From the NCBI GenBank assembly GCA_026387665.1, contig JAPLLG010000007.1:372001-436000 (forward strand): DNA of 64,000 nucleotides. Direction: 5' to 3'. Each line of letters opens with the position of its first letter. The stretch's first letter is position 1. Positions 33,141 through 57,015 of the stretch are shown piece by piece. Both the position numbers and the translations under genes were made by a program. Below the pieces are notes generated by a model that worked only from the letters and a program-made list of their open reading frames with translations, was not told where the DNA came from and did not search any database. Source of the stretch: Nitrospirota bacterium (GTDB taxonomy: Bacteria; Nitrospirota; Nitrospiria; Nitrospirales; Nitrospiraceae).

Positions 33141-33263
33141 CAGGATGCTCAAACAGGTCATCCAGCAAGGCCGCAGGGAGATCAAGCGCCGAGGCGTGCT
33201 ATCGTGCACGTTGAGGCGCTTGATCGACCGAGAACGAAGCTGGTGACCTGTTTCAGCATCCTG
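33141..33263. repeat. Family A hairpin repeat, copy A2
   Basis: The outer arms are CAGGATGCTCAAACAGG and CCTGTTTCAGCATCCTG, a perfect match. The inner segments are GATCAAGCGCC with GGCGCTTGATC, and an apical stem GTGC-TATC-GTGCAC. It has the same left-to-right order as A1, A3 and A4 but carries compensatory changes in the stems. The right arm ends two bases before the yajQ stop codon (minus strand). Confidence 0.9.
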
Positions 33264-45376: not shown

Positions 45377-45910
45377 ATGATTGAACGGCAACGGAATCGC
45401 ACAGGCCTGTACTTACTCCTCTTGGGACTCCTCCTCTCAGTAGGCCATCCCCTGTCCGCCCAGGCAGTCCCGATGGTCAACGATCCGAACGGGTTCCAGA
45501 ACCTGACCTGGGGCGCCACCCTGACTGAACGGCAGGATCTGGAAGTCGCCCGAGCAGGCCCCCATGTGAACGAATTCCAATTGCGGAGCGGCGCGCCGTC
45601 CTATGCAGGGATCCCGGTCGAAAGCGTCCGCTTCTTAGCGGTCGACGATCAATTTGCCCGTGTGACCATCCGCTACCAGGGCGACGATCGCCACAAACAG
45701 ATCCTGACCTATCTTGAACAACAGTTCGGCTCTCTGGATCGTATCCCGGGCCAGATGCTGCGGGGCCTCAATCAACAATATACCTGGCGCGGCATCGATA
45801 CGGAGATCAGCCTGACCTATCATGCCAACACGGAGCGGGGATTTATCTTTATCGATAGCCGGACCCTGGCTCCCCGGTTCAACGACCGCATCACCGATTC
45901 AGCGGAGTAA
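45377..45910 (+). CDS. Exported protein of unknown function, paralogue 1 of a tandem pair
   Basis: The 177-residue product has a signal peptide (GLYLLLLGLLLSVGHPLSAQA) and one domain of about 140 residues starting VNDPNGFQNLTWGATL, with ARVTIRYQGDDRHKQILTYL and a late FIFIDSRTL strand. The next gene repeats the domain (NDPNGF-x4-WGA, ARVTVRYQGK, YGSLDRTPGQ). I recognise no named family; a small alpha/beta periplasmic domain is likely. Its stop codon is followed at once by the arm of a split family A repeat. Confidence 0.75.
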   Translation: MIERQRNRTGLYLLLLGLLLSVGHPLSAQAVPMVNDPNGFQNLTWGATLTERQDLEVARAGPHVNEFQLRSGAPSYAGIPVESVRFLAVDDQFARVTIRYQGDDRHKQILTYLEQQFGSLDRIPGQMLRGLNQQYTWRGIDTEISLTYHANTERGFIFIDSRTLAPRFNDRITDSAE

Positions 45911-46143
45911 CAGGATGCTGAAACAGACCGCCAGCACAACGACCGTATCTCGTGAAGCATATCTCGTCCGGGATAAGAGCGTATGGCGAATGGCGTATAG
46001 CTGGGAGCAAAGATCCTCCCTTTCTTCATTCCGGACCATAACGCTATGGGCTATAGGCCATATGCTCTTCTCAGGAACGAGATACGCTTCACGCTTCACG
46101 AACGACGGACACACCATAAGGACGGCCTTTTTGAGCATCCTGG
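45911..46143. repeat. Split family A element carrying a family B hairpin (A5 + B2)
   Basis: CAGGATGCTGAAACAG (from 45911) and CCTTTTTGAGCATCCTGG (to 46143) are the two outer arms of family A, in inverted orientation relative to the other copies. The usual interior is replaced by a long hairpin (45944-46100) whose arms read CGTATCTCGTGAAGC ... GCGTATGGCGAATGG and CCATATGCTCTTC ... GAGATACGCTTCACG, family B with 7-base units. The first arm begins on the base after the stop codon of paralogue 1. Confidence 0.8.
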
Positions 46144-46634
46144 TCCAAGCGCTCAGTGTGCTCGCCCTCTCCGCCAGCCTGGCCTTTGCCGTGCCGATGC
46201 AGAACGACCCCAACGGCTTCGAAGGTATTCCCTGGGGCGCCGCCTTCTCGGAAACCGACACCTTCGTCAAAGTCGAGGATGCCGGCCGCGCGCAAACCTA
46301 TGAACTGAAGACTGGAGCTCCCTCACTCGGCCCTGCGAAGGTCGATTCCATGCGGTTCCTGACCGTCGACGGGAAGTTCGCGCGCGTCACGGTCCGCTAC
46401 CAAGGCAAGACCACCCACGAACAGGTCCTGGCCTATCTCCAATCCCGCTATGGTTCGCTCGACCGCACACCGGGACAATTCACCGGAGGGCCCGTCAAGT
46501 TTTACAGTTGGACCGGCTTCGAGAGCGACATCAACCTCCGTTACGAAACCGCCACGGACCGCGGCATCATTTTCTTCGAGAGCCAGGAACTCCGCCTCAA
46601 AATCACCGAGGGCAATTCCGCCACCGTGTTTTAA
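46131..46634 (+). CDS. Exported protein of unknown function, paralogue 2 of a tandem pair
   Basis: The mature domain (VPMQNDPNGFEGIPWGAAFS to IIFFESQELRLKI) repeats that of the upstream gene. A TTG at 46131, after AAGGA, starts a signal peptide (LSILVQALSVLALSASLAFA). That TTG lies inside the right arm of the split family A element, so the repeat seems to have supplied the start. An ATG at 46062, within the family B hairpin, is the alternative and would add 23 residues before the hydrophobic core. The start is uncertain, the domain is not. Confidence 0.72.
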   Translation: MSILVQALSVLALSASLAFAVPMQNDPNGFEGIPWGAAFSETDTFVKVEDAGRAQTYELKTGAPSLGPAKVDSMRFLTVDGKFARVTVRYQGKTTHEQVLAYLQSRYGSLDRTPGQFTGGPVKFYSWTGFESDINLRYETATDRGIIFFESQELRLKITEGNSATVF

Positions 46635-56888: not shown

Positions 56889-57015
56889 GCAGGATGCTCA
56901 AAAAGTCATCCAACTAGGCCGCAGGCGAGTCAAAACCGGAGGCGTACCCTTCGGGGGTACGTTGAGGATTTTGACGAACCGAGAACGACGTTGGAGGGCT
57001 TTTTCAGCATCCTGC
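56889..57015. repeat. Family A hairpin repeat, copy A3
   Basis: The outer arms are GCAGGATGCTCAAAAAG and CTTTTTCAGCATCCTGC, a perfect match. The inner segments are CGAGTCAAAACC with GGATTTTGACGA, and an apical stem GCGTACCC-TTCG-GGGGTACG with a stable TTCG-type loop. It lies between the convergent ends of the pump gene and the SCP2 gene, the right arm 17 bases from the SCP2 stop. A bidirectional terminator role is conceivable. Confidence 0.92.

Follow-up and report, generated by a model that had tools for sequence, protein, structure and literature searches.

The window, a stretch of 64,000 nucleotides on contig JAPLLG010000007.1, belongs to a Nitrospira-type genome of 2.64 Mb (G000) and carries two tandem paralogous genes with a nested repeat between them. 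Within positions 45377-46634, we distinguished the following features:

45377-45910, + strand: paralogue 1, an open reading frame for a predicted exported protein of 177 aa, which adjoins paralogue 2 across the genus
45904-45907, + strand: GGAG within the end of paralogue 1, by its hybridisation match the likely Shine-Dalgarno sequence of paralogue 2
45911-45935, + strand: left arm of a family A element (CAGGATGCTGAAACAGACCGCCAGC), from inverted-repeat and element comparison
45915-46634, + strand: paralogue 2 as reinterpreted here, a putative 239-aa precursor starting at the left-arm ATG, as judged from 11 alleles that share one phase and have this frame open
45947-46101, + strand: family B hairpin, standing where a family A element normally has its own interior, strongly folded (z -7.9) and with further copies in the genome
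46118-46142, + strand: right arm of the family A element, coding TAFLSIL, the first half of the hydrophobic core
46131-46133, + strand: TTG, a possible secondary internal start, unconserved (CTG in L008, CCC in L016)
46143-46190, + strand: native remainder of the signal peptide (VQALSVLALSASLAFA), from gapless alignment with insert-free relatives

The TAA stop codon of paralogue 1 lies 4 nt 5′ of the left-arm ATG, and the GGAG falls within the last codons of that gene. The original prediction, made from the letters of the window, had described family A arms around a family B hairpin between the paralogues, and this arrangement was borne out: the arms (45911-45930 and 46123-46142) are inverted and 85% complementary, and with the enclosed hairpin they make an element of 232 bp (45911-46142). 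As had been proposed, LSIL is encoded by the right arm, and the hairpin contains an alternative ATG (position 46062). In the precursor as we read it, residues 1-76 are repeat-encoded and residues 77-92 are the native remainder of the signal peptide, with cleavage expected before VPMQ to leave a mature domain of ~147 aa. The paralogue family is predicted to be exported and is near-universal in the taxonomic family, occurring in 166 of 175 genomes. Sequence searches of Pfam, NCBIfam and PDB gave no match for the paralogues beyond a sub-threshold hit to DUF423 (E 0.12), and the mature-domain model was confident (pLDDT 86), yet had no significant fold match in PDB.

Family A elements are numerous in this genome, in which the arm word CAGGATGCTSAAA occurs 169 times compared to 0 times for a reversed control. 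Most of the 70 complete elements (58) have the usual length of 122-127 bp, and the other 12 measure 138-245 bp and carry exchanged interiors. Because of these 12, nested or exchanged interiors can be seen as a general property of family A here rather than a peculiarity of our locus. Another interior family (TGTGCTCGCGCAACGCGCGG...) was also found nested in family A arms in six elements of 165-245 bp (L107, L130, L132, L134, L136, and L137). With terminal inverted repeats, a length below 300 bp, no protein of their own and many copies, family A elements are MITE-like. Their flanks have the consensus CTAG on the left and C[GT][AG]G on the right (with the element, CTAG followed by CAGGATGCTG), and a check for target site duplication gave 8 matches between 4-bp flanks vs. 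3.5 expected. The GTAG or GTGG that marks the hairpin foot in REP/RAYT systems is absent from family A, the flank being CTAG-like. A search of Rfam returned nothing. We rejected a RAYT transposase as the mover of family A because the window genome contains no RAYT-type Y1 transposase (Y1_Tnp, PF01797), with positive controls.

Throughout the genome, family A elements lie right behind genes and in a preferred orientation (e.g., 33141-33263 and 56890-57014 in the window), with long-ORF stop codons near the left end in 58 cases and near the right end in 12. In 37 of 70 elements, an ORF of at least 80 codons has its stop codon exactly at -3 of the left end. Coding has been shown by comparison for one of the 70 sampled elements, that of paralogue 2; the others mostly follow stop codons, and orthologues were compared for a minority of them. 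A TatD gene with an open family A element upstream (L105) is no fusion on present evidence, as an apparent native start (MLIDTHTHLDD) stands just behind the element.

To place the window in context, we compared it with its relatives. Homologues were present in 29 of the 32 genus genomes, nearly always as a pair, and in 39 named loci. In insert-free relatives (e.g., L017-L033 and N. defluvii, L064), the ATG of paralogue 2 most often follows the stop of paralogue 1 by 1 nt, and the native spacer between that stop and the mature protein is mostly 94 nt. The same interval in insert-bearing alleles is 277 nt (window), 139 nt (L007), 217 nt (L008), 190 nt (L009-L011), 211 nt (L012), 127 nt (L013), 193 nt (L016), or 322 nt (L014 and L015). 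The inserts come in eight lengths and have four kinds of interior, yet the native phase is kept in all 11 alleles that carry one. The paralogue 2 frame contains no in-frame stop in any of the 11, and both other forward frames contain stops in each. The original prediction had named relatives without the repeat as the comparison to make and an identical N-terminus there as its refutation; the outcome was in its favour, as the N-termini there are different (e.g., MAHHLSSRIPAPLIAAL... or MPRRPHTDPW...). One insert-free orthologue of paralogue 2 (L023) is reported with a single TAA within the matched stretch, which may be an error or mark a pseudogene. A readthrough fusion of paralogues 1 and 2 was rejected since the two are in different frames in all alleles (counted with the stop, the spacer is 1 mod 3). 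In other genera, long open frames upstream of homologues (L218-L225) were considered as repeat-built N-termini and proved ordinary, with no complete family A element.

These comparisons make it likely, in our judgement, that the repeat, which stands in place of the native start of paralogue 2, is translated in frame from ATG 45915 as the n-region of the signal peptide. A MITE-like family A palindrome, lying after paralogue 1 and before the hydrophobic core of the next signal peptide, has replaced the native start and n-region of paralogue 2. The kept phase, the open frame, the lost native start and the turnover of interiors are seen directly in the alleles, and the start codon, the coupling and the cleavage are inferred from them. 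Ribosomes that end paralogue 1 would re-initiate 4 nt later at ATG 45915 with the help of the GGAG, and the whole repeat would be read in frame to give a signal peptide of ~92 residues whose n-region is long, variable and derived from the repeat. Cutting off this leader on export would leave its sequence nearly free, so that accepted changes, including swaps of interior among repeat families A, B, and C, need only keep the phase and lack stops.

The ATG at 45915 (context CAGG-ATG-CTG) is found in nine of nine window-clade alleles, eight of which have the GGAG 7 nt upstream. The GGAG match is alike (-6.1 kcal/mol) in 10 of the 11 insert-bearing alleles, being weaker in L007, and in most native alleles, where the same GGAG serves the native start of paralogue 2. 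Based on this conservation, the left-arm ATG is most likely the main start. Re-initiation there is probably coupled, because the ribosome ending paralogue 1 stands beside it. It had been predicted that TTG 46131 in the right arm was the only start giving a normal signal peptide, and this was not confirmed, given that the frame is open through the whole insert and ATG 45915 is conserved. The broader claim that the repeat supplies the start is likely to hold, but through the left arm rather than the right.

Both starts could be in use: coupling at ATG 45915 would give a long precursor, and 46131 or 46062 would give a short one as a secondary product. Shine-Dalgarno matches at both 45915 and 46131 in the window fit this idea, and internal initiation at the TTG may occur there as an additional start. 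However, the internal starts are unconserved and lie within a very stable mRNA hairpin (predicted at -103.5 kcal/mol, z -7.9, with both ATG 45915 and TTG 46131 inside), and we regard two working starts as unlikely. That ATG 45915 is part of this hairpin also speaks against the main reading. We think it still less probable that the insert is an untranslated leader and that translation begins at the TTG with a short signal peptide (MSILVQALSVLALSASLAFA). This would yield a compact hydrophobic signal behind a well-spaced AAGGA (-7.3 kcal/mol in the window), and N-terminal REPs in other species are often suspected to be extragenic (PMC3733652). Yet the TTG is replaced in two alleles (CTG in L008 and CCC in L016), its Shine-Dalgarno match is weak in L008, L009, L012, and L014-L016, no positive charge precedes the core, and the conserved phase of the upstream insert would be left unexplained. 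The TTG is thus probably not the main start.

Returning to translation of the whole repeat from the left-arm ATG, we asked how readily its phase and openness could arise by chance. The probability that eight of eight insert lengths would be in phase is 1.5e-4. Of the 69 other family A elements in this genome, 10 are both in phase and open, a difference from the inserts with a Fisher P of 2e-6. Openness alone says little, because the corresponding frame is commonly open in family A (in 19 of 70 elements), and first-order resampling gave an open frame by chance in 4-33% of cases per allele. The weight of the argument therefore rests on phase.

As the best control, we used the family A element behind yajQ (33141-33263 in the window), which has the same orientation, lies between a stop codon and the next gene, and occurs in the majority of genus genomes. 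All three phases are represented across the genus both in the length of this element and in its distance from the next gene, in contrast to the element at paralogue 2 (Fisher P = 0.002, or 0.004 against the commonest yajQ phase). In most of the genus (L158-L187), the yajQ element keeps its place, as a rule 5 nt from where the stop codon begins, and its interior has been exchanged in L161, L167, L169, L170, L178, and L182. Parsimony on the paralogue tree gave about seven length changes and five interior changes within the inserted clade of 10 taxa. The evidence thus amounts to around seven events rather than 11, because the alleles share ancestry. That a non-coding insert kept its phase merely by chance, through common descent and gene conversion between cassettes that resemble one another, is very improbable, even though the window-clade alleles probably stem from one insertion and native elements are often open in this frame, since at least seven length and five interior changes in 10 taxa were all in phase and the yajQ element has no phase bias. 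The sequences come mostly from metagenome-assembled genomes, in which repeats are prone to assembly error, but the agreement of independent assemblies makes such error unlikely as a general explanation here.

Substitution patterns point to different constraints on the two parts of the precursor. Among L009, L010, and L011, the insert changes fast and with little codon-position bias, and the mature domains vary mostly at third positions. Between L009 and L010, the insert differs by 13 nonsynonymous and 8 synonymous codon changes, compared to 5/14 and 3/17 (nonsynonymous/synonymous) in the two mature proteins. By this measure, the mature domains are under purifying selection, and paralogue 2 is therefore very probably translated. 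The insert region is very probably translated as well, because its phase and open frame are kept in 11 alleles while the yajQ element occurs in all phases. The prediction of repeat-made coding sequence was thus upheld by phase and open frame, and it extends to ~76 codons rather than the four proposed. From 45915 to 46142, there are 76 repeat-derived codons, followed by 16 native codons to the expected cleavage site. The hydrophobic core is half repeat-encoded (FLSIL) and half native, and the most hydrophobic 12-mer includes the arm-coded LSIL in 10 of 11 alleles; in L016 the stretch begins at IL. The ~76 repeat-encoded amino acids are probably removed during export, and a frame that is kept while its amino acids appear free to change is as expected for a discarded leader.

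The comparison of alleles also bears on how the native start was lost. In L014 and L015, the element lies behind a retained native ATG (MPCHLSSR followed by MLKK...), an intermediate. The window clade, which has lost this start, lacks exactly 21 nt, in frame, between the paralogue 1 stop and the element, and the right junction is common to all. A deletion between TAACA and TAGCA could account for the missing 21 nt. In the tree of the mature genes, L014 and L015 group with repeat-free relatives, and repeat-free L034 falls inside the inserted clade. Because these placements conflict with the presence of the insert, exchange or loss must have occurred at some point.

Palindromic repeats that lie in frame are known from Rickettsia and Wolbachia (PMC10969869, PMC3767692). 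The Rickettsia palindromic elements (RPE-1 etc.; Ogata 2000, 2002, as cited in PMC10969869 and PMC3767692) are 100-150 bp long, in frame in protein genes, and kept open, and some of their sites hold different repeat groups in different species (PMC3767692). In its working, the family A insert is like such an element, being part of the reading frame of a protein gene and open in its orthologues, but we take it for a different family. Unlike those elements, it comes from another phylum, has another sequence as far as seen, is shown for one gene, and lies in a signal peptide, where the start codon has been replaced and the interior swapped among several families. Our case also works like the enterobacterial ERIC/RU-2 repeat fused to YPO1552, a signal-peptide fusion (PMC2759123). 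That repeat is unrelated, however, and the fusion is a single-genome annotation, whereas here the interior is nested and several alleles allow a test of phase. GTAG-tagged REPs also sit directly behind genes, often giving the TAG stop codon, and some lie at ORF N-termini, many of them possibly untranslated (PMC3733652). Family A differs from them in its length of 122-127 bp, its CTAG-like flank, and the lack of a detectable RAYT-type Y1 transposase in the genome. We found no literature on such repeats in Nitrospira in openly accessible papers. New in this case are a start codon that has been replaced, interiors that have been swapped, and evidence of phase from the comparison of alleles.

A single genome usually cannot tell whether N-terminal repeats in bacterial genes are translated, and it is often assumed in the literature that they are not. 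Here, one orthologous gene with eight insert lengths can be set beside a similar non-coding element of those genomes, and sequence comparison can then decide. As this case suggests, the n-region of a signal peptide can be replaced by mobile repeats time and again, and a repeat can take over the start codon of a gene. An evenly balanced possibility, in our view, is that an element behind a stop codon acts as a socket, with interiors repeatedly swapped for those of other repeat families by exchange between genomic copies and filtered for phase only, and with the start coming from the repeat. If true, the exported protein would begin at a site of turnover, with a signal peptide that is built from repeats and evolves fast.

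The abundance of family A varies across the genus. Arm words number only 6 in G029 and 14 in G001, two small genomes of 1.8 and 1.7 Mb, compared to 58-284 in the rest of the genus. Elsewhere in the taxonomic family, genomes contain at most 67, mostly <30.
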